Source: a virus
IMG/VR virus record: IMGVR_UViG_3300025978_000022
Location: 1 to 30,473 of that record
DNA length: 30,473 nucleotides
Reading direction: 5' to 3' (one strand)
Every line of letters starts with the position of its first letter. Position 1 is the first letter of the stretch. A program made the translations under genes and the position numbers. The notes beneath the pieces are model-generated. The model was not told the DNA's origin and searched no databases. It worked only from the letters and a program-made list of their open reading frames with translations. Shown piece by piece: positions 3,460 to 30,473 of the stretch.

Positions 3460-4959
3460 ATGGCAACATTATCGTTAGCTAATGTAATAACAGTAACGCT
3501 TTTATCGGCACTGTCAGGGATAGCAAACGCCAATACGTCAATTCTGGCGCTTATTACCCATGAAGCGCCTGTAGATTCCGGTTACGGAGATTACGGAATC
3601 TATTATGATTCTGCGTCTGTATCAACAGATTTCGGAAGTAATTCCGTTACGTATGAACTGGCTGAATTGATTTTTAGTCAGTCACCAAACATTTTATCTG
3701 GCGGTGGATATCTTGTAATCATCCCACTGAATCAAAGTGCATCGGCAACTGCTGCTACTATACTCGGTGATTCTGCTGTAGATTTAACTAAACTTACCGC
3801 AACGGATTATCACATAAAAGCTGCGGTTGACGGAGGATCTGCAACAGAAATAACAATTGGTGAACTTGACTTAACCAGTCTTGAAACAGCGGAAAGTTCC
3901 CTTAATGCCTATGCACTTGAAACAGCAGGACTTGTTTTTTCTCTTACGGGAGAACTTGGGGCTGCATCTGTCACGCTTTCATCTTTAACAACCGGGGCAA
4001 GTTCTGCAATTACATTATCTGATTCTGCATCCGGTACTGATATTGCTAAAAAACTTGGAATATCAGAAAAAACAGCAACCGGAGCAGCTGCAGGAGTTGA
4101 GAGAGTAAAAGATGCAATACTTCGTACATATGGATCAATAGATTATTTCGGAGTTATTCTGTCTGAAAAACAGACTGATGCAAACCTGCTAGAAATTGCA
4201 GCAACAATGCAGACTCTTGATAAAATGCTTGTCGTAGGCAGTAATCTTTCTGCTGATTTTACATCTGATACAGGCGTTTTTACAAAGATTACATCAAAAA
4301 GTTATACACATACTCGTTGCCTGTATCATTCTGTTTCGGCAGATGATGCTTTACAGTTTGCAGCCGGATATTCAGGCAGAGGATTTTGTATCAATTTTGA
4401 CGGAACAAATACTGTACATACTATGCATTTGAAAGATATTACAGGATTAGCCGAAGATACCGGATTAACACAGACTTTGCTTACCAAAGCAAAAAATAAC
4501 GGCGTTGACTGTTATGCTTCTCTTGGAAGTGCCGGCGGATCCGTGCAAAAAGTCTTTACATCAGGTGCTAATGGCTGGTTCGATTATATTTACACATCAC
4601 TGGCGTTCAAATTGAGGATCATTACTGCCGGATTCAATGCCCTGGCAACGACAAATACAAAGCTCCCACAGACAGAAGAGGGCATGAATTCCCTTAAAAA
4701 GGCATATCGTGAAGTTTGTACACAGTTTGTTTCAAATGGGGCGTTTGCTCCGGGAACATGGAACAATTCGACTACATTCGGAAAACCGGAAGACCATATC
4801 AGAAATATTTCTGACGTAGGCTATTTTGTATATTCCGATCCGATAGCAAGCCAGAGTCAGGCTGTACGGGAAACAAGGAAGGCACCGTCTGTATATATTG
4901 CGGCGAAGGCGTCCGGCGCAATCCATTCAAGCGATGTAACTGTTTACATAGAACAATAG
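3460..4959 (+). CDS. Contractile tail sheath protein (DUF3383 family)
   Basis: 499 aa, with the ribosome site GGAGG at 3446-3450. The length and the order of regions fit DUF3383 sheaths: an N-terminal SLANVITVTL strand, variable alpha/beta middle domains with IDYFGVILSEKQTDANLLEIAATMQTL, a GYSGRGFCINFDGTNTVHTMHLKDI core, and a C-terminal handshake strand with IASQSQAVRETRKAPSVYIAAK (residue runs shortened). The protein polymerises around the tail tube and contracts on infection. Tube and chaperone genes follow. Confidence 0.88.
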   Translation: MATLSLANVITVTLLSALSGIANANTSILALITHEAPVDSGYGDYGIYYDSASVSTDFGSNSVTYELAELIFSQSPNILSGGGYLVIIPLNQSASATAATILGDSAVDLTKLTATDYHIKAAVDGGSATEITIGELDLTSLETAESSLNAYALETAGLVFSLTGELGAASVTLSSLTTGASSAITLSDSASGTDIAKKLGISEKTATGAAAGVERVKDAILRTYGSIDYFGVILSEKQTDANLLEIAATMQTLDKMLVVGSNLSADFTSDTGVFTKITSKSYTHTRCLYHSVSADDALQFAAGYSGRGFCINFDGTNTVHTMHLKDITGLAEDTGLTQTLLTKAKNNGVDCYASLGSAGGSVQKVFTSGANGWFDYIYTSLAFKLRIITAGFNALATTNTKLPQTEEGMNSLKKAYREVCTQFVSNGAFAPGTWNNSTTFGKPEDHIRNISDVGYFVYSDPIASQSQAVRETRKAPSVYIAAKASGAIHSSDVTVYIEQ

Positions 4960-6034: not shown

Positions 6035-6406
6035 TTATTCCGGGTTGTTCGTTGAGCCTAAAAACTCTTCATTTCCTTCGTACGGGATGCAATATTCCCA
6101 ACTGTCAGTCATACAACAATAACTGAATTCACTTCTGTTGATATGTCTTTCAAAAAAATCAGTACTCCAAATTTGATTGATTTTGTCTCTTACAAGCACT
6201 TTTTCAAACGGTTTGAATTCGTGCTCCGGTTCTTTGTATGGTTCTGCATGAGCAAATACACCTCCATCTGCTCTAAAAGGGAAGCCCAATAATTCAAAAC
6301 CATAAACAACGCGCCTTACCTTATCGGCTTTTTGATTATTCCATACCCAACAGTCAACCGGTTCATCTCTTTTCATTGCGTCAAGCAACCATTCAGGACA
6401 ATTCAT
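6035..6406 (-). CDS. Accessory (moron-type) phage protein of unknown function
   Basis: 123 aa on the minus strand, inside an otherwise + tail operon. The start is preceded by AAGAGGT. The second half has the pattern FKPFEKVLVRD...W..DFFERH...C.PYEGNEEFLGSTNNPE, which I recognise from many gut phage and bacterial proteins of unknown function. The first half holds a small WVWNNQKADKVRRVVYG segment. It has its own promoter (6427-6454), almost identical to that of the DUF7666 gene at 29988. Position, orientation and private promoter are classic moron traits. Confidence 0.7.
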   Translation of the reverse strand: MNCPEWLLDAMKRDEPVDCWVWNNQKADKVRRVVYGFELLGFPFRADGGVFAHAEPYKEPEHEFKPFEKVLVRDKINQIWSTDFFERHINRSEFSYCCMTDSWEYCIPYEGNEEFLGSTNNPE

Positions 6407-6426
6407 ATTAATACCTCTTGTATTAC

Positions 6427-6454
6427 ATTATAACATTGTAATGCACTCTGTCAA
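6427..6454 (-). promoter_or_regulatory. Promoter/operator of the moron gene
   Basis: On the minus strand TTGACA (+ coordinates 6449-6454), a 16-base spacer and TATAAT (6427-6432). The spacer and -10 contain a near-palindrome from GCATTACAATG to AATGTAATA. The 41 bases from -35 to the ribosome site match those at 29940-29980 with one difference. Confidence 0.8.
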
Positions 6455-13776: not shown

Positions 13777-13806
13777 AAAAAACCGGAGTTCATCACTCCG
13801 GTTTTT
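13777..13806. terminator. Bidirectional terminator between fibre and lysis operons
   Basis: A-run plus CCGGAGT (to 13789), loop TCATC, ACTCCGG plus T-run (13795-13806). Symmetrical, so it serves both the + fibre gene ending at 13772 and the - lysis gene ending at 13810. Confidence 0.9.
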
Positions 13807-14774: not shown

Positions 14775-15176
14775 TTAAGCGACCTCCATTGTTATGATAC
14801 GGTACGGTGGATCATACGGATTTGATGTATCTATTTTACCGCTGGTTATGCAGACAGATACGTCAAGCGGATTGTATGTAACCTGTCCGTCAATCATACC
14901 GACAAAATGATTATAACCGTTGTTTGTCCATTTTGCAACATATTTTGCGCCTTTAGCAGGAGGAGCAAACGACTTGGTCACATTTGCCCGTACTCCAAAG
15001 TGAGCATAAACTTTTACCGCATCAAGGACGGTACAGTCTTTGTCGATTGCCCCTTTCCCGACAAGCTTGTCAAAGTCTGTAATCAATGATTCCTCTGGAA
15101 TCCTTGCACACCATAAATAACAGAACGCAAGGCATCCATATTCTCCGATTGTTTTGCATTTAGACTGTATATTCAT
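14775..15176 (-). CDS. Putative endolysin, cysteine-peptidase-like (DUF261-like)
   Basis: 133 aa from the ATG at 15176 (GAGG 8 bases upstream); a TTG at 15182 is also in frame. An early EYGCLAFCYLW segment puts Cys15 at the start of a helix. A NHFVGMIDGQVTYNPLD segment supplies His90 and Asp105. This Cys-His-Asp order resembles C39/NlpC-type peptidases, and the opening resembles DUF261 proteins known from spirochaete prophages. In a lysis cassette, peptidoglycan cleavage is the natural role. Family match is from memory and should be tested. Confidence 0.5.
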   Translation of the reverse strand: MNIQSKCKTIGEYGCLAFCYLWCARIPEESLITDFDKLVGKGAIDKDCTVLDAVKVYAHFGVRANVTKSFAPPAKGAKYVAKWTNNGYNHFVGMIDGQVTYNPLDVSVCITSGKIDTSNPYDPPYRIITMEVA

Positions 15177-15186
15177 TTGCAATACC

Positions 15187-16805: not shown

Positions 16806-16842
16806 TATTGCATTGATTATAACATTGTGATACAATGCAATA
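16806..16842 (+). promoter_or_regulatory. Early operon promoter with palindromic operator
   Basis: A perfect inverted repeat with 10-bp arms, TATTGCATTG (16806-16815) and CAATGCAATA (16833-16842), spaced by 17 bases. The arms coincide with a -35 (TTGCAT, 16808-16813) and a -10 (TACAAT, 16831-16836) at 17-base spacing, so a bound regulator would block polymerase. The ribosome site AGGAGG follows. Confidence 0.7.
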
Positions 16843-16862
16843 ACAGGAGGCTAAGAAAAAGC

Positions 16863-17024
16863 ATGAAAAAAGAAAATGAAGAAAAGATGTATGTCAGAAT
16901 TGATATACTGTGCACGGAATCGTTCAAAAAAGAGTATTTCGCGAATATCAAAGAAGGAAATAAATCCGACCATATCCGCGAACTGATGGAAAAAGACAAC
17001 GATGCATTATCGAAGTCAAAATAA
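16863..17024 (+). CDS. Small RHH-like DNA-binding protein (candidate regulator)
   Basis: 53 aa with ATG 16863 after AGGAGG (16845-16850). After a charged start there is a short strand (KMYVRIDIL), a helix (TESFKKEYFANI), a turn (GNKS) and a second helix (DHIRELMEKD), the beta-alpha-alpha plan and size of Arc/CopG ribbon-helix-helix proteins. RHH dimers bind palindromes with the strand pair. It is the first gene downstream of the longest operator palindrome in the window, so autoregulation is a natural guess. The fold call is by eye. Confidence 0.5.
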   Translation: MKKENEEKMYVRIDILCTESFKKEYFANIKEGNKSDHIRELMEKDNDALSKSK

Positions 17025-17355
17025 GTATCATGCCGTCAAGACGAAAATCGACGGCGTGATATATGACAGCAGAAAAGAGGCAGCACGGGCGTGTGAACTC
17101 ATGATGATGGAAAAAGCAGGCGTAATATCTGACCTGAAATTTCAGGTGCCGTTTTTGCTTCAGACGGCATTTATCCACGATGATAAAAAGTACCGTAAAA
17201 TAGAATATTTTGCAGACGCAACATACTATGAAAACGGGCAATATATCGTTGAGGACACAAAAAGCCCTGCTACCAAAAAGAACAAAGAATACCGGATAAA
17301 GAAAAAACTGCTTCTTTTCCAGTATCCTGATATCACTTTCAGGGAGAACTTATAA
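17002..17355 (+). CDS. DUF1064 protein, predicted phage nuclease
   Basis: 117 aa, overlapping the RHH-like gene by 23 bases. NKYHAVKTKIDGVIYDSRKE at the N-terminus, then IEYFADATYY and YIVEDTKSPATKKNKEYRIK: an endonuclease-like core with Asp and Glu-x-Lys-type residues (E-D-T-K) as in VSR/PD-(D/E)XK folds. DUF1064 is common in phage replication regions. Exact substrate unknown. Confidence 0.82.
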   Translation: MHYRSQNKYHAVKTKIDGVIYDSRKEAARACELMMMEKAGVISDLKFQVPFLLQTAFIHDDKKYRKIEYFADATYYENGQYIVEDTKSPATKKNKEYRIKKKLLLFQYPDITFRENL

Positions 17356-17600
17356 TGGAGGATGAAAGAAGTAAAAAAGAAATTTGTCCTGAAACGGGTA
17401 AAACATGTTATTCCGAACGCGGCGCAAACGAAATTATAAATAAATGCCGTCGGGGAATGACATATATTGAAAGCGGGCATACGGTAAAAAGGAAGTATGG
17501 CGCAAAAAATATACCTAAAAGGAAATATTTTTGTACCTACTGTGGTGCTTATCATCTAACACATTTGCCATATTATAAGGAGAAAAAAGAACATGAGTAA
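17355..17600 (+). CDS. Small zinc-ribbon-like protein
   Basis: 81 aa. First Cys pair C.ETGKTC near residues 11-17, then a late CTYCGAYHLTH motif (residues about 59-69) that should bind zinc. Small proteins with a YxCxxCGxYHLT ending are common beside DUF1064 and recombination genes in phages. The ATG overlaps the previous TAA by one base. Role unknown, likely nucleic acid binding. Confidence 0.65.
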   Translation: MEDERSKKEICPETGKTCYSERGANEIINKCRRGMTYIESGHTVKRKYGAKNIPKRKYFCTYCGAYHLTHLPYYKEKKEHE

Positions 17601-18591
17601 TCCATTCGGAGAAATAGAAACAGTAAAGCAACCTGGTATGATTGCAGAACAGGCACGGTCGATAACAGAAGTACAAGCACAGGTTGTACTTGCTCGTCAA
17701 TTTCCGCGTGACCCATTGCTTGCAACAGATAAAATTTTAAAAGAATGCCGGCGCGTGTCTCTCGCCGAACAGGCAATCTACAGCTATCCAAAAGGTGGGC
17801 AGCAGATAACAGGACCATCCATCCGGCTTGCGGAAGCAATTATACGGTCGTGGGGAAATTGTCTTGCCGGACTCACAGAAGTTGACAGAAATAAAGAGTC
17901 ATCATCCATGCTGGCGTATGCATGGGATTTAGAGACGAACACCATGATTCGGAAAGAATTTAAAGTACCTCATTCGAGAGATACAAAAAAGGGGAAACAA
18001 ATTCTTACCGACGACAGGGATATTTATGAAATGACTGCAAATCAGGGAGCAAGGAGAATGCGAGCATGTATTCTTGGTCTTATCCCCGGGGATGTAGTTG
18101 ATGCCGCTATGGAAGAATGCAATAAAACATTGACAGCCAATGTTGGAAGTGTTCAGGATGCAATAAAAAATATGCTGTTGGTATTTGAAAAAATCGGCGT
18201 TACAAAGCAGATGATTGAAAAACGGCTGCAGCACAGAATTGAATCAACACAGGCTGCTGAAATTGTTTCTTTGCGCGGTGTGTACAATTCAATACGTGAT
18301 CACATGGGTTCTATCGATGATTATTTTGAAAAAGAAAAAGAACCTGAAAGCGTCGTAAAGACGGCAGAAAAATCTTCTGAACCGTCGGCAGAAAACGCGC
18401 TCAACGACGGATTTTCCCTCGAAACACCTCTTTCTGTTAAGGAAATGATTGTGAAACTGGAAGAATATTCAAGAGACGAAACATTACCGCAGATAGCATT
18501 GAGAGAAATACAGGATATTCTTGAATCCGGAGAGGAAGATCCAGAAAAACTTGATGCATTATTGAACAAAATCAAAACAGCTAAAAAATAA
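17593..18591 (+). CDS. Conserved phage protein, probable recombination function
   Basis: 332 aa, GGAG ribosome site. Residues 20-180 carry a highly conserved phage/plasmid core: EVQAQVVLARQFPRDP, RRVSLAEQAIYSYPKGGQQI, GPSIRLAEAI, WDLETNT, then a DDRDIYEMTANQGARRMRAC region and LIPGDVVDAAMEEC. I recognise this family as usually lying next to a Cas4/RecB-like exonuclease, as here (19796), which suggests a ssDNA annealing or recombination role. The function is not proven to my knowledge. The C-terminal 90 residues are acidic and low in complexity. A terminator follows. Confidence 0.6.
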   Translation: MSNPFGEIETVKQPGMIAEQARSITEVQAQVVLARQFPRDPLLATDKILKECRRVSLAEQAIYSYPKGGQQITGPSIRLAEAIIRSWGNCLAGLTEVDRNKESSSMLAYAWDLETNTMIRKEFKVPHSRDTKKGKQILTDDRDIYEMTANQGARRMRACILGLIPGDVVDAAMEECNKTLTANVGSVQDAIKNMLLVFEKIGVTKQMIEKRLQHRIESTQAAEIVSLRGVYNSIRDHMGSIDDYFEKEKEPESVVKTAEKSSEPSAENALNDGFSLETPLSVKEMIVKLEEYSRDETLPQIALREIQDILESGEEDPEKLDALLNKIKTAKK

Positions 18592-18627: not shown

Positions 18628-18668
18628 CACTTTGCTGTTGACAAAACAATGCAATGTATTATAATACT
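18628..18668 (+). promoter_or_regulatory. Promoter, first copy of a 41-bp direct repeat
   Basis: Contains TTGACA (18638-18643), 16-base spacer with CAATGCAATG, and TATAAT (18660-18665). All 41 bases are identical to 20352-20392. A GGAGG ribosome site for the gene at 18686 follows. Confidence 0.85.
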
Positions 18669-18685
18669 TGATATGGAGGTTATGA

Positions 18686-19372
18686 ATGAACGAAATGACA
18701 AAATCATCTGCCAAAGAGCAGGAATCGGAACAGGCGGCAGCTCTGCTTAAAACACAGGCTGACACAGTTATAGTATCGAACAAAGAAGAGTATGACGCTG
18801 CTCTTGCCGTTGACAAAAAGGCACGGGAAGCGAAAAGAGCTTTTCACGAATGGTTTGACCCGATTGATGATGCGAGCAAAAAGCAGCGCGCGACAACAAT
18901 TGCGCAGGGGAAAAAGATTGATGAACCACTTGATTATGTGGTTAAAACCATAAGCCGGAAAACATCGGCATGGTACTCCGCTGAACAGGCGCGGATCAGA
19001 GCAGAACAAAAAGCGGCAGAAGATGCAGCGCGCAAAGCGGCAGAGGATGCGGCACTGATGGCAGCAGAGCTGCTTGAAAAATCGGGAATGACCGCTGCTG
19101 CCGATGCGATTCTTGAAACTCCGGTCGCAGTACCGAAAGTTGAAGTTCCTGTTTTCGATAAACCGGAAGGAATTTCATATAGGACACAATATTCTGCGGA
19201 GGTTATTTCCATGCCTGACCTGATTCGGGCAGTATTCGAGGGCAAGGCATCTTCGGCATATCTCATGCCTAATATGACTGCGCTTAATTCATGGGCACGC
19301 GGTACAAAAGGGGCCGACAGTATCCCCGGCGTAAAAGTTGTAAAAGAAACTTTGCAAGCGAGGAAAATATGA
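18686..19372 (+). CDS. Phage coiled-coil protein of the recombination region
   Basis: 228 aa. N-terminal two thirds are helical; residues 95-125 are an Ala/Glu/Lys-rich coil with repeated AEDAARKAAEDAALMAAE. The C-terminal 65 residues form a separate small domain (ISYRTQYSAEVISMPDLIRA, then LMPNMTALNSWARGTKG and PGVKVVKE), seen in many phage proteins near exonuclease genes. It may bind DNA or the recombination proteins beside it. Start chosen at 18686, six bases after GGAGG. Confidence 0.65.
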   Translation: MNEMTKSSAKEQESEQAAALLKTQADTVIVSNKEEYDAALAVDKKAREAKRAFHEWFDPIDDASKKQRATTIAQGKKIDEPLDYVVKTISRKTSAWYSAEQARIRAEQKAAEDAARKAAEDAALMAAELLEKSGMTAAADAILETPVAVPKVEVPVFDKPEGISYRTQYSAEVISMPDLIRAVFEGKASSAYLMPNMTALNSWARGTKGADSIPGVKVVKETLQARKI

Positions 19373-19806: not shown

Positions 19807-20365
19807 ATTCAATCCGGAACGTCACGAATATTCTGTTACAGACAGGATTATCCCGTCAGTAACTCAAATATTGAAAAATGCCGGATATATTGACGACAGA
19901 TATTTTACAGCAGAGTCCCGTGACCGGGGGACTGCGGTACACGAACTGTGCAGACGATACACAGACGGTATCCGAATAGACAAAACAGGACGAAGCCTTG
20001 AGTCGCTGGAATATGTCAATGCATTTGCAAAGTGGATGCAGGAAAAACATGTGTATGTTATTCTGTCAGAAACAATTGTGTACGGAAATATTGACGGCCA
20101 CGAATATGCAGGTAAATTTGATATTCTTGCAGAAATAAATGGTAAGCGCGTCCTAGTTGACCTGAAAACAGGTGGAAAAATAAAATGGCATTTGATGCAG
20201 CTTGCGGCATATGCTATCGGATTTCTTCCTGATGGAAAAAGGACAAATCCTGACAGACTTATGGATCTGTATGTAATCCCAGACGGAAAATACAGGGAAT
20301 CGTATATCAATCCCGTCGAACTGCCTGAACAAATAAATCTGTTCAAAGATGCACTTTGCTGTTGA
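19796..20365 (+). CDS. PD-(D/E)XK exonuclease (Cas4/RecB-like)
   Basis: 189 aa. IIPSVTQILKNAGY near the start, RDRGTAVHELC (the conserved His motif), then a GKFDILAEING segment followed by VLVDLKTG, giving the Asp and the D-x-K active-site residues, then a QLAAYAIGF helix. Typical of phage recombination exonucleases that resect DNA ends. The last codons (ALCC and TGA) lie in the 41-bp promoter repeat at 20352, so the natural C-terminus may have been replaced. The active site is intact. Confidence 0.82.
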   Translation: MNVKFNPERHEYSVTDRIIPSVTQILKNAGYIDDRYFTAESRDRGTAVHELCRRYTDGIRIDKTGRSLESLEYVNAFAKWMQEKHVYVILSETIVYGNIDGHEYAGKFDILAEINGKRVLVDLKTGGKIKWHLMQLAAYAIGFLPDGKRTNPDRLMDLYVIPDGKYRESYINPVELPEQINLFKDALCC

Positions 20366-20392
20366 CAAAACAATGCAATGTATTATAATACT
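20352..20392 (+). promoter_or_regulatory. Promoter, second copy of the 41-bp direct repeat
   Basis: TTGACA (20362-20367), 16-base spacer, TATAAT (20384-20389); all 41 bases equal to 18628-18668. It starts inside the exonuclease gene and supplies its stop codon, then drives 20409 onward. Confidence 0.85.
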
Positions 20393-20408: not shown

Positions 20409-20711
20409 ATGGAAAGAATGACGGAAATAGAAACCTTGCAGAAAATGATTAATAATCCAAGGTGCAGTTGTGAAAAAATAATGTGTGACGAATGTTTTTA
20501 TGGTGATAAAAAATTATGCCCTGCAAAAAAAGAAATACAAGATCGTTATGAAAAAATACAAATGGGTATTTATCTTCAAGATGAAAATGATCTTTATAAT
20601 GTCATTCATAAATTCATTTCAGAAATAAGACGTATGAACGAAAGATTGGCAGAAATGGAAGAAATCTGTCGTAAAACCACAGAAAAGTTTCAATGGATTA
20701 AAAATGCTTAA
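20409..20711 (+). CDS. Hypothetical Cys-rich/coiled-coil protein (100 aa)
   Basis: GGAGG upstream. The N-terminal half has five Cys (CSCEKIMCDECFYGDKKLC), likely a zinc site. The C-terminal half is a charged helix (FISEIRRMNERLAEMEEICR). First gene of the third early transcription unit. No family recognised; probably a small DNA- or protein-binding phage factor. Confidence 0.6.
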   Translation: MERMTEIETLQKMINNPRCSCEKIMCDECFYGDKKLCPAKKEIQDRYEKIQMGIYLQDENDLYNVIHKFISEIRRMNERLAEMEEICRKTTEKFQWIKNA

Positions 20712-22099: not shown

Positions 22100-22126
22100 A
22101 AAGCCCGGACTTTTCATCCGGGCTTT
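22100..22126. terminator. Bidirectional terminator between clamp and capsid genes
   Basis: AAAGCCCGGA (22100-22109), loop CTTTTCA, TCCGGGCTTT (22117-22126). Convergent genes end at 22093 (+) and 22131 (-). Confidence 0.88.
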
Positions 22127-22130
22127 ATCA

Positions 22131-23123
22131 TTAAGTCGTCGGTGTCAAATCGCAGTAAAGCATTTCACGCGGGCGGGCAACCATTACACCGGATGTCTGA
22201 CCATAAGCAAGCTGTTCGAAATCGAATCCGTTAAGTGTGTACGCCTGATTCATTGTAAAGTCAACAGGAATAGACATTTTGAGCGTTTCGGGATCATTAC
22301 GGTATAAAACGTATCTGTCCTTTCCTTCGGGATTGTACGCGCTCTGACAATAAACCATCGGCACAATCTTGATTTCCTTACCTGCCTGATCCTTGAAAAC
22401 CTGTTCAAGATATGCTTTTTTTGTGATATTCGGATACAGAGAGCTTGCAGCAGAACCAAATCCGAGATAATCGGCAGCCGGTATCATGAACACATCCGGG
22501 AACATACGGGTGTAGTTCGTATTCAGGGCATATGTAGAAAGTACTGCACCTACAAATGTCTGGAATTCCGTGTCATCCATCGCGCTGATTTTCTTAGGAA
22601 TCAGTGTCGTATTGATAGTTACATCAGAATTTGTGAGAAGCCCTGTCAGACTGGTATCAATATTCAGCCCGTTAAAAGATGCTGCCTGAATGCCGAGGTC
22701 CCAGTTCTTTTTGAGCGACGCCATTTTTCCTTCGACAACATCCCAGTTTCCGACGTTTGCGGCCTCTGCAATCTCCGCAATGTTCCACGTACATTTTTTG
22801 CGCCATGTCTTGACTGGCATACGGATCTGTCCGAGAGCGACACTTGTCTGCGGAATACGGGAACCGCCCTGATTTACAAAGCCGTCCTCAAAATTGCCGC
22901 CTTCCTGAAATTCAAGGTTCTGGACAATTTCACTTTTCCATGCGGCTTCTCCGACATCAACGGGCATGTAATCGCCCGGCATGATTTCAAAAAAAATCTG
23001 TTTGATAACTTTTGCGCGGATATAACTCATTGAATCAATAAGAAATTTGAATCCGCTGCTTGTGATATCAACGTCACCTGCGGAATTGAACAGTCTCATT
23101 CCGCGAATTGTCTGTTTAGCCAT
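22131..23123 (-). CDS. Major capsid protein (DUF2184 family)
   Basis: 330 aa, AAAGGAG before the start. The family order is visible: a PGDYMPVDVGEAAW segment, then GGSRIPQTSVALGQIRMPVK, WNIAEIAEAANVG..., a WDLGIQAASFNGL helix, MIPAADYLGF, and a C-terminal QLAYGQTSGVMVARPREMLY. DUF2184 proteins are HK97-fold capsid subunits. The gene follows the cement and protease genes, as in related phages. Confidence 0.9.
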   Translation of the reverse strand: MAKQTIRGMRLFNSAGDVDITSSGFKFLIDSMSYIRAKVIKQIFFEIMPGDYMPVDVGEAAWKSEIVQNLEFQEGGNFEDGFVNQGGSRIPQTSVALGQIRMPVKTWRKKCTWNIAEIAEAANVGNWDVVEGKMASLKKNWDLGIQAASFNGLNIDTSLTGLLTNSDVTINTTLIPKKISAMDDTEFQTFVGAVLSTYALNTNYTRMFPDVFMIPAADYLGFGSAASSLYPNITKKAYLEQVFKDQAGKEIKIVPMVYCQSAYNPEGKDRYVLYRNDPETLKMSIPVDFTMNQAYTLNGFDFEQLAYGQTSGVMVARPREMLYCDLTPTT

Positions 23124-23143
23124 GTTCTGTTTGTTCTCCTTTT

Positions 23144-23638
23144 TTATGCGCCGGCGGTTACTGCGTCAGATTCCACCATGACGCGCACAATGTCACCCTG
23201 GACCGCTTTATCAAGCAGGTAGCCCAGATAGGCTTTTGTTCCAACCGCCTGCACGCTTCCCGGGGTCCCGTACACGCCGGAAACTTTCGCTCCGCGATTC
23301 AGTGCAGCTGATGCAACGAGGTTGATAACGGCATCTTTTACCGCAATCTCTACAATTTCGCCCGGCTTGAATTCAGCCTGTTTCAGGTTACGTTTTACGA
23401 CGCCGAAAATAGTATCAGTATCGGCAGTGCGCTTTGTGATAATCGGAGGACCGACAAGATCACTTGTTCCGAGATCGGTAAGTTTTACCGTCTCTCCGGC
23501 AATCAGCCTGTTTGTGCTGGTATCGTCGGGATTATATCGGCAGGAAATAACATGTTCCCCACCGAAAAAGCTCAAATCAAGGTCGCCGACGGCTTTCCCT
23601 TGCTTGAAACTGTTTATACTCTGATAATTCGTTGCCAT
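23144..23638 (-). CDS. Capsid cement/decoration protein (Gp24/DUF2190-like)
   Basis: 164 aa, GGAGG upstream. Small all-beta protein with AGETVKLTDLGTSDLVGPPI, DTIFGVVKRNLKQAEFKPGE and EIAVKDAVINLVASAALNRG, the repeated layout of cement proteins that lock the capsid surface. Located between protease and capsid genes, the standard order in this group. Confidence 0.78.
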   Translation of the reverse strand: MATNYQSINSFKQGKAVGDLDLSFFGGEHVISCRYNPDDTSTNRLIAGETVKLTDLGTSDLVGPPIITKRTADTDTIFGVVKRNLKQAEFKPGEIVEIAVKDAVINLVASAALNRGAKVSGVYGTPGSVQAVGTKAYLGYLLDKAVQGDIVRVMVESDAVTAGA

Positions 23639-24749: not shown

Positions 24750-24778
24750 TTGACAAATATATATAATTGTATTACAAT
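24750..24778 (+). promoter_or_regulatory. Promoter of the accessory island
   Basis: TTGACA (24750-24755), 17-base spacer, TACAAT (24773-24778), followed by GCA (the ACAATGCA element shared with other early promoters) and ATGGAGG. Confidence 0.7.
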
Positions 24779-24799
24779 GCACTGTATGGAGGAAACGAA

Positions 24800-25014: not shown

Positions 25015-25218
25015 ATGCATGAATTAGAAGAGAATCAGGAAATTACTTTTGTGTTTGTTCCATCGAAAGGAAAAACTAAAGATGGAACATGTGGTAAATG
25101 CTGCTTTGATGTCGGACAGAAGCTTGAAAGCCTGTGCCCTGAAATTGCATGTACCCATGATACACGCAAAGATCACAAGGACGGTTATTATATATGCGCC
25201 GTCAAGGATAATGTATGA
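25015..25218 (+). CDS. Small Cys-rich phage protein (67 aa)
   Basis: AAGGGG ribosome site. Six Cys: a CGKCCFD cluster, then LCPEIAC and a final Cys near the end, with His in THDTRKDH. The 'TCxxCxF...CP...C' layout is common in small phage proteins that probably bind zinc. Overlaps the next start (ATGA). Confidence 0.6.
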   Translation: MHELEENQEITFVFVPSKGKTKDGTCGKCCFDVGQKLESLCPEIACTHDTRKDHKDGYYICAVKDNV

Positions 25219-25598
25219 ACTTTTTAGTTATAAGCTGGTGGGTATTGTTCGGGATTGTTCCTCAGCAGAAAGAAGCTATCGGAACCGGGATAGTAGATTT
25301 GAAATCAAGCCCGGCTACTGTAGCAGAAGTTGGTTTTAATATTATTGCTGATAAACATTTTCTAGTTGAATTCTCAATAGAAAATTATCAGTATAAATCT
25401 ATCGATGGATTATTTTTTAATCCGTACCGTGTTGATTATAGGTTTAAGACCGGTGTCATATTTAATGATCATATTTCTATTTTTTTTGATCATGAATGCG
25501 ATCATCCGATAGTATCATGTAATATTCCGAATTCAAATCCTGATTTTTTAAGTCAGGAATCAAGAATATATGTAAAATTTGAAGGTATATCAAAATAA
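25215..25598 (+). CDS. Hypothetical beta-rich protein (127 aa)
   Basis: Hydrophobic N-terminus (MNFLVISWWVLFGIV) that could be a signal peptide or anchor. Then alternating strands (VAEVGFNIIADKHFLVEFSI, FFNPYRVDYRFKTGVIFN) and a FFDHECDHPIV motif with two His, one Glu, one Cys and two Asp. Strand pattern with an N-terminal signal suggests an exported or envelope protein. I recall similar phage genes but no function. A perfect AT-rich hairpin overlaps its stop. Confidence 0.5.
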   Translation: MNFLVISWWVLFGIVPQQKEAIGTGIVDLKSSPATVAEVGFNIIADKHFLVEFSIENYQYKSIDGLFFNPYRVDYRFKTGVIFNDHISIFFDHECDHPIVSCNIPNSNPDFLSQESRIYVKFEGISK

Positions 25599-25617
25599 TC
25601 ATCATTATTTTGATATA
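25586..25617. other. Perfect 14-bp AT-rich inverted repeat
   Basis: TATATCAAAATAAT (25586-25599), loop CATC, ATTATTTTGATATA (25604-25617), overlapping the stop codon of the 127-aa gene. No T-run. A weak terminator, RNA-processing site or operator. Confidence 0.6.
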
Positions 25618-25639: not shown

Positions 25640-26043
25640 ATGAAAGAAATAGGAATGTTATTCAGCACGGACATGGTACACGCCATTGTTGACGGTAGAA
25701 AAACGCAAACAAGGCGATTGATAATAACGAAAATATTTTATATCGCTCTGATAAAATGTTTGATGACATGGAATCATTCGATTGGAGCTGGAATCCATCT
25801 CTACATATGCCAAAAAAGTATGCCCGTATCTGGCTTAAAGTCACGGGTATCAGTGTTCAACGGATAATAAAAATAACAGAAGAAGAAGCTCTTGCAGAAG
25901 GATTTATTCAAAATGGATGTAAAGCACGATCTCGATTTTTTGGGTATATGGTTAACAAATATGGAGACAAGGATAAAGACGAAAATGAATTTCTTGACAG
26001 CTGGTGCTGGGTTATTACTTTTGAAGTCGAGGAGCGTGTATGA
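25640..26043 (+). pseudogene. ASCH-like phage protein broken by a frameshift
   Basis: The first frame (25640) opens with a GGAG site and reads KEIGMLFSTDMVHAIVDGRKTQTRRLI, the classic N-terminus of phage ASCH-domain proteins (runs shortened: VDGRKTQTRRL). The matching continuation (LHMPKKYARIWLKVTGISVQ, then EEEALAEGF and a Trp-rich LDSWCWVITFEVEE end) is in a different frame. The join would fall near 25718-25732, where one missing base restores RRLI-NNENIL. The usual central part is short. Either a true mutation, a phase-variable site or an assembly error. Confidence 0.7.
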
Positions 26044-26546: not shown

Positions 26547-26870
26547 ATGGTTACTTATGAAGGAAACGGCAAGGAAATTGTTTTTATCTGCGGCCCGATA
26601 ACAGGCGTTGAAGATTATCGCGAAAAATTCAATTCCGCACAGGAACGACTTGAATCTATGGGATACATAGCACTCAATCCTGCCTTACTCCCTGAAGGAA
26701 TGCCACACGATTATTACATGCCGATAACATGCGCAATGATTGACGCAAGCAAAAAAGTGTTCCTTCTCACGGGCTACGAAAATTCGATAGGATGTGCGAA
26801 AGAAATTGATTACGCTGTATTATCCGGAAAAGAGGTGAAACGGTATGACTATAACGGGGACGCTGTATAA
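26547..26870 (+). CDS. DUF4406 nucleoside deoxyribosyltransferase-like protein
   Basis: 107 aa, GAGG site. IVFICGPITGVEDYREKF at the start is the DUF4406 hallmark, then MGYIALNPALLPEG and late MIDASKKVFLLTGYENSIGC followed by AKEIDYA. The fold is that of nucleoside 2-deoxyribosyltransferases, so modification or salvage of nucleosides is possible. In phages the precise substrate is unknown. Overlaps the next gene by 26 bases. Confidence 0.85.
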   Translation: MVTYEGNGKEIVFICGPITGVEDYREKFNSAQERLESMGYIALNPALLPEGMPHDYYMPITCAMIDASKKVFLLTGYENSIGCAKEIDYAVLSGKEVKRYDYNGDAV

Positions 26871-27099
26871 AATAATGGATACATTGCCGGAACGGAATAT
26901 TTCCGGCTGGCAGTTATTTGATATGGTTTCCTCTGTCACAGGGAAAAACACTTATCCGTCAACGCTTATATCAATGGCGCGCAATTATGCTGATATTACA
27001 GGCAGTGACTTTGATTGCGTAGACAGGCAAAAATCTATCTATCATTTTAAGCCATCCGGTTTTACAATAGGAAATTCGATTATCTGGGGGAAAGAATGA
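26845..27099 (+). CDS. Hypothetical winged-helix-like protein (84 aa)
   Basis: ATG 26845 with GAGGTG upstream, within the end of the DUF4406 gene. ERNISGWQLFDMVSSVTGKN, TYPSTLISMARNYADITG and DFDCVDRQKSIYHF resemble small phage proteins with a helix-turn-helix-like core and a final strand pair. Fold proposal only. ATGA overlap with the YopX gene. Confidence 0.55.
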   Translation: MTITGTLYKIMDTLPERNISGWQLFDMVSSVTGKNTYPSTLISMARNYADITGSDFDCVDRQKSIYHFKPSGFTIGNSIIWGKE

Positions 27100-29939: not shown

Positions 29940-29967
29940 TTGACAAAGTGCATTACAATGTTATAAT
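29940..29967 (+). promoter_or_regulatory. Promoter/operator of the DUF7666 gene
   Basis: TTGACA (29940-29945), 16-base spacer, TATAAT (29962-29967). The near-palindrome ATTACA...TGTAAT covers spacer and -10. One difference in 41 bases from the moron promoter at 6427-6454; AAGAGGT follows as ribosome site. Confidence 0.82.
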
Positions 29968-29987
29968 GTAATACAAGAGGTGATTAT

Positions 29988-30473
29988 ATGAAAGCGTATA
30001 AAGTTATTAATCCTGATTGGACATGCCGTGGTTTTAAGTATGAAGTAGGGAAATCCTATCATTGCGATGGGAAAATAAAAATATGTTCAAACGGTTTCCA
30101 CGCATGTGAAAAAGCTGCAAAATGCTTTGATTATTATGATTTTAATTCATCAAATCATGTGTGTGAAGTTGAATTATCAGGAGAAATAATATCCGACGAA
30201 AAAGGGAAATCATGTGCAAGCGACATTTTAATTATCAAAGAAATTGCATGGTCAGAGCTTCTTACCGTCGTGAATGAAGGAAAAAACTGTACGGGCTTGT
30301 GTAACACGGGTGACCGGAACACGGGTGACTGGAACACGGGTGACTGGAACACGGGCGACCGGAACACGGGCTTGTGGAACACGGGCAACCGGAACACGGG
30401 TGACTGGAACACGGGCTTGTGTAACACGGGTGACTGTAACACGGGCAACTGGAACACGGGCAACTGGAACACG
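29988..30473 (+). CDS. DUF7666-type protein with NTGxx repeats (partial)
   Basis: 162 codons to the window end with no stop. Residues 1-100: MKAYKVINPDWTCRGFKYEV, SYHCDGKIKICSNGFHACEK, CFDYYDF...VCEVELSGEI, IKEIAWSELLTVVNEGKNCTG, which I recognise as the DUF7666 domain of gut phage proteins. From codon 101 the chain becomes perfect five-residue repeats (NTGDW, NTGNW, NTGLC, and so on), which should fold as a beta-helix. It has its own promoter and points away from the portal gene, like the moron at 6035. Function unknown. Confidence 0.75.
   Translation, partial: MKAYKVINPDWTCRGFKYEVGKSYHCDGKIKICSNGFHACEKAAKCFDYYDFNSSNHVCEVELSGEIISDEKGKSCASDILIIKEIAWSELLTVVNEGKNCTGLCNTGDRNTGDWNTGDWNTGDRNTGLWNTGNRNTGDWNTGLCNTGDCNTGNWNTGNWNT
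30303..30473 (+). repeat. 15-base tandem repeat encoding NTGxx
   Basis: Eleven full copies of a 15-base unit (consensus AACACGGGYGACTGG) plus six bases, reading NTG followed by two variable residues (DR, DW, LW, NR, LC, DC, NW). A degenerate copy (CTGLC) precedes at 30288. The window ends inside the array. Confidence 0.9.

Follow-up and report, generated by a model that had tools for sequence, protein, structure and literature searches.

A gene for a 53-aa protein (P0001, 16863-17024, plus strand) lies behind an exact inverted repeat (S1, 16806-16842) that covers its likely promoter, and the half-site of this repeat is enriched in promoters of the window (the whole stretch of DNA analysed, a virus record of 30473 bases) and of two related contigs, L005 and L006. 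As read from the sequence, the small P0001 gene is real and follows a promoter of the operator type. The most likely single model, tentative as it is, would make P0001 an autorepressor of the RHH type. The rival explanations considered here overlap, and the likelihoods attached to them do not sum to one.

The ATG of P0001 at 16863 is preceded by AGGAGG. Codon use of the gene was 0.388 bits per codon, as compared to 0.13, 0.36 and 0.61 at the 5, 50 and 95% points of true genes (median 0.363) and 0.04 at the 95% point of off frames. Since the in-frame stretch from an earlier ATG (16803) to 16863 scored -0.448 bits per codon, 16863 is the likely start. P0001 heads a phage nuclease/recombination gene cluster: the next gene (17002-17355, plus strand), which overlaps it by 23 bases, encodes a DUF1064 or phage resolvase-type nuclease, and a protein with a profile match to phrog_3657 is encoded in the same cluster (17593-18591, plus strand). 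A role for the latter in recombination is a guess from the adjoining nuclease genes. Scanning with 17593-18588 yielded two viral loci and one genome locus at 41-49% identity, and no homologue was present in six portal-sharing records. Scans for relatives with 18686-19369 and with the capsid found none.

The S1 repeat (plus strand) consists of perfect 10-bp arms separated by a gap of 17, TATTGCATTG at 16806-16815 and CAATGCAATA at 16833-16842, and contains the half-sites TGCATT (16809-16814) and AATGCA (16834-16839). A sigma70-type promoter was assigned by eye beneath it (16808-16836, plus strand), with a -35 box of TTGCAT (16808-16813), a 17 bp spacer and a -10 box of TACAAT (16831-16836) with an upstream TG+1. 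The arms overlie both of these likely boxes, which bears out an earlier note that had described a perfect palindrome over the gene's own promoter. The promoter was absent from a consensus promoter scan, and its -35 box is only half-matching. Perfect repeats with arms of at least 10 and a gap of at most 30 numbered seven in the window versus a mean of 1.15 and a largest count of 4 in 40 shuffled windows, and the length of the S1 repeat alone is therefore unremarkable. Two of the seven, at 13778-13806 and 22100-22126, appeared terminator-like by eye. The same note had taken S1 for the longest operator, which it is not, as the longest perfect inverted repeat listed is at 25586-25617 (arms of 14, gap of 4). 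This repeat lies at the end of the ORF at 25215-25598 and just 5' of an ATG at 25640, and is A+T-rich with no T run after it. What counts for S1 is its position on a promoter, together with half-sites that are common to other promoters. The exact S1 operator, with gaps of 15-19, was seen in no other record of viral_contigs, in a scan that may omit the window's own record or near-identical ones.

The half-site TGYATT, on either strand, was found in all six candidate operator promoters of the window (S1-S6) and in six of the seven promoters examined in L005 and L006. S2 (6419-6454, minus strand) has TTGACA at 6454-6449, TATAAT at 6432-6427 and a 27-nt site at 6445-6419, and precedes a lone gene for a 123-aa protein (6035-6406, minus strand). 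S3 (29940-29975, plus strand) carries a 27-nt site identical to that of S2, and would drive the gene starting at 29988. S4 (18638-18667, plus strand) lies before 18686-19372, and S5 (20362-20391, plus strand), identical to S4 in that stretch, lies before 20409-20711. S6 (24750-24781, plus strand) shows TTGACA, a spacing of 17 bp and TACAAT (TGTATTACAATGCA), and is followed by a series of small co-directional genes. As S3 nearly duplicates S2, and S5 likewise S4, the six sites represent fewer independent events. The two genes behind S2 and S3, at 6035-6406 (minus strand) and 29988-30473 (plus strand), are moron-like, in that each is a lone gene next to structural genes that run the other way, and the strong promoters of the two are almost identical. 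The product of 29988-30473 contains many NTGDWNTG-type repeats, and the gene runs off the contig.

The frequency of the half-site was estimated in two ways. In the first count, 14 regions were taken, S3 and S5 were excluded because they duplicate S2 and S4, and promoters of the contig L009 were left out as copies of those in L006; the 12 non-duplicate promoters contained 17 half-sites against 3.7 expected, a number reached in none of 2000 shuffles. Since S1, S6 and the L006 promoter L006e had been found by means of the motif, a second count was made on promoters picked by a TTGACx...-10 pattern outside coding sequence, for which 9 of 18 scan lines were used. Four lines were dropped as copies (two in L009 and two in the window) and five as coding (L006 4833; L011 1849 and 2115; window 8612 and 8878). 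The nine promoters so chosen from the window, L005 and L006 held 12 half-sites against 2.4 expected (none of 3000 shuffles), that is, 12 in nine stretches of 48 nt as compared to 0.14 per 48 nt across the window. No half-site occurred in 60 bases at each of the five TTGACx matches inside coding sequence. Control promoters from other phages also contained none, and with three found were too few to use. The earlier idea of a regulon is upheld and extended by these counts, which take in L005 and L006 as well as the window. The enrichment across three records (none of 3000 shuffles), along with the density of the half-sites, argues against the view that S1 arose by chance in AT-rich promoter DNA and is bound by nothing. 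That reading, for which one could cite the occurrence of perfect repeats with arms of at least 10 at a rate near one per shuffled window (mean 1.15) and the inconsistent half-site spacing, we consider very unlikely.

The arrangement of the half-sites varied, and the other promoters have the half-site in common with S1 but neither its full dyad nor its spacing. They faced each other 25, 21, 13 or 8 bases apart from start to start, stood back to back 7 apart, or followed in tandem 5 apart, and among the 14 promoters five had a single half-site and one had none. An L005 promoter that matches S3 has kept the right half and not the dyad. Such variation would not be expected of one rigid dimer bound to a palindrome, but might be of a protein that recognises short half-sites in differing arrays. 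A 13-base block is common to S1, S2 and S3, and its score was equalled or exceeded in 8 of 200 shuffled windows. In S2 and S3 the block includes the -10 box, whereas in S1 it has the opposite orientation, a reversal that fits a binding site for a protein better than the copying of a promoter element. S1 also shares a stretch of 14 bases, ATACAATGCAATAA, with a promoter of L006 and L009. We also tried a pattern of TTGACA...ACAATGCAAT...GGAGG and rejected it: the stretches fetched from the five contigs in which it was seen shared no protein with the window (E 1e-5), and these appear to be chance matches.

In the model that we favour, the promoter of P0001 would be of the sigma70 type, with the operator arms lying over both its -35 and its -10 box. 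The P0001 product would be a small DNA-binding protein of the RHH type that occupies both TGCATT half-sites of S1 as a dimer or a pair of dimers. Once abundant enough, it would shut its own promoter by occlusion, and it would damp other promoters with the same half-sites.

Whether P0001 has the RHH fold is, in our estimate, evenly poised. No RHH match was obtained in the Pfam, NCBIfam or PHROG libraries, and the best sequence match in the PDB had an E of 0.48. PF01402 matched nothing at E 10 in 17 virus records, while 14 of 14 control genomes were matched, nine of them over the cut-off. We also used a profile of our own, built from 30 RHH_1 domains. With hhalign, residues 11-43 of P0001 aligned to positions 5-39 of this profile, covering the strand, helix, loop and second helix, at a probability of 16% that was equalled in 2 of 600 shuffles. 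P0001 ranked first by this probability among 326 frames of the window, two of which were higher by raw score. In hmmsearch P0001 reached 3.7 bits, as did 150 of 20000 shuffles, with a match to GNKSDHIRELME alone, and its frame ranked fourth of 696. All 30 true RHH_1 domains gave 88-98% when tested one by one on a profile of the remaining members from which those at least 45% identical had been removed, although such domains score well by construction, having been picked by their RHH_1 match. Against a profile of nine divergent RHH_1 members, P0001 fell to 0.8%, a value equalled in 54 of 600 shuffles. The proposal of an Arc/CopG-type RHH protein is weakly supported, by a profile signal that lies above shuffles; the score is far below that of true RHH_1 domains and the signal fails with the divergent profile. 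The same RHH profile of our own found nothing at E 1 in frames of loci L002-L067. A weak match to the RHH profile was present at 4503-4760 (minus strand) of G006, a relative without half-site promoters (E 0.01 for that record); its best stretch, at 10.3 bits, scored better than that of P0001.

Structure prediction gave a different picture from the strand-helix-helix plan that had been put forward for P0001. The AlphaFold2 model (single sequence, monomer) was of low confidence, with a mean pLDDT of 68.6 and none of 53 residues at 90, and showed three helices, at residues 3-16, 19-31 and 36-51. The first of these (pLDDT about 65-70) occupies the place of the RHH strand, and the plan is thus not reproduced. 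Helices 19-31 and 36-51, with GNKS at 32-35 between them, are at the positions of the RHH helices in this low-confidence model, and residues 9-15, the strand candidate, alternate in a strand-compatible manner when read from the sequence. Because the N-terminal strand of RHH proteins pairs only between the subunits of a dimer, the monomer model neither confirms nor excludes the fold. Foldseek returned one match to the low-confidence model, at E 6.3, which was not an RHH repressor, and VIA-align 2 gave no Z of at least 2 against that single chain, a comparison that is uninformative with such a model.

P0001 might instead be a small accessory early protein with no role in DNA binding, for example a factor that interacts with the host or its defence, or a recombination helper. 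Genes of this kind are common in phages, and P0001 is the first gene of its nuclease/recombination cluster, is charge-neutral (net charge 0; 12 K/R and 12 D/E residues), has an all-helical model, albeit of low confidence, and is an orphan. Homologues were absent from the viral_contigs, phages and plasmids collections, from nine records reached through loci, and from 398 genomes in the phylum to which the Ruminococcaceae genome behind L004 belongs, a phylum that may not be that of the host; among 17 virus records that included the window's own, only the window matched. This absence says little, since the P0001 locus was seen in none of the contigs fetched for L005, L006, L009 and L011. An accessory role sits less well with the RHH profile signal above shuffles and with the finding that, of the six operator promoters in the window, S1 alone has perfect arms of at least 9 at a gap of at most 30, and we rate it as credible but rather doubtful.

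Being behind a half-site promoter does not single out P0001 as the candidate master regulator that the note had proposed, since six promoters of the window carry half-sites. It had been thought to be the only obvious DNA-binding candidate, a view overturned by a gene for an 84-aa protein downstream of S6 (26845-27099, plus strand), whose product is a predicted winged helix conserved in relatives. Its AlphaFold2 model (pLDDT 81.9; H3-13, E17-20, H21-32, H38-52, E55-60, E65-69) is predicted to follow the winged-helix order H1-S1-H2-H3-S2-wing-S3. The leading Foldseek matches were winged helices, including Fur, Zur, PerR and PhoB domains (best E 0.025, probability 0.99; none at E 0.001 or better), and the best Z in VIA-align was 8.3, although a Z near 8 can reflect a common arrangement and winged helices are also found in proteins with no DNA-binding activity. 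The 84-aa protein matched nothing in Pfam or PHROG. Copies that are 77% identical are encoded in L006 and L009, together with the same kind of promoter half-sites, and by reading, the L006 relative is also downstream of a half-site promoter. However, the gene is about the seventh of its run and not promoter-proximal, and a homologue is also present in L010, where the three promoter-like matches of the 44.8 kb record have no half-site. On these predictions, we judge it credible but unlikely that the 84-aa protein regulates the half-sites, with P0001 just one of its targets.

A regulator encoded outside the contig, whether a host protein or a repressor from phage sequence that the record lacks, also has to be weighed. 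The window comes from a contractile-tail phage, as judged by matches to sheath, baseplate, portal and capsid, and at 30.5 kb the record may be a fragment. As the related record G006 measures 44.8 kb, part of the phage, and with it a regulator, may be missing from the window. The large terminase was absent among the 40 window proteins searched, a subset of the window's genes; L006 has a candidate upstream of its portal, which we take to be a large-terminase gene from its translation alone. L006 also encodes a 61-aa HTH-like protein (1621-1806), with a best match to HTH_28 at E 0.0055, below the cut-off, but its TTGACA promoter (L006d) lacks a half-site. An outside regulator appears credible but improbable to us.

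Gene order differs between these records. The window's first gene has a homologue in G006 that lies downstream of the capsid gene, no more than 0.85 kb away and in the same direction. In the window itself, the end of the capsid gene abuts early genes of opposite strand, and the first gene is found at the other extremity (regions 1-515 and 22131-23165). Either the head and tail modules are differently arranged as compared to G006, or the contig is rearranged. The gene at 14775-15182 (minus strand) matched DUF261 exactly at the cut-off (26.1 bits). DUF261 is linked to Borrelia, and the match was considered as a possible hint of a spirochaete host; a literature search on this gave nothing relevant.

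A further reading is that P0001 founds a family of tiny phage repressors not seen so far, whose divergence puts them beyond RHH profiles and which act on variably spaced TGYATT half-sites and jointly tune recombination genes, early genes and lone accessory genes. This we hold to be unlikely. Should P0001 prove to be the repressor, it would be a compact one, with six operators occurring naturally in the window and similar promoters in relatives, and a convenient case for a short protein that reads variably spaced half-sites. Independent of P0001, the shared promoter half-site is a handle for finding the regulator of a poorly sampled environmental phage group.

Among known systems, the Fur/PerR-type winged-helix domain resembles the model of the 84-aa protein in shape. 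The Fur-type matches were 3-15% identical to it among the matches listed, and with 84 aa it lacks a second domain; on this evidence it is not a member of that type. Arc of phage P22 and CopG are about the size of P0001 and cover the promoter of their own operon. They differ in that P0001 has no sequence match in the PDB and a model without the strand. The viral protein F55 is small, as its name suggests. PMC5569661 names Arc and CopG, and describes SvtR and F55 as RHH repressors of viruses, each of which binds the promoter of its own gene and further promoters of the virus. SvtR of SIRV1 resembles our model as a 6.6 kDa repressor of its own gene that also binds three other genome sites and uses an inverted repeat, an imperfect one, whereas its best site is ~80 nt from the promoter boxes (PMC5569661). 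A sequence relation between SvtR and P0001 was not found. F55 of Sulfolobus spindle-shaped virus 1 also resembles the model, in that it acts on its own and several early promoters through repeated short sites and controls early genes (PMC5569661). The virus and promoters are archaeal in that case, the sites are tandem ATAGATAG repeats, and the RHH fold and binding are established (PMC5569661), whereas for P0001 both are hypothetical. Given the precedent of SvtR and F55 (PMC5569661), P0001 as an RHH autorepressor, even if confirmed, would join a known kind of viral regulator.
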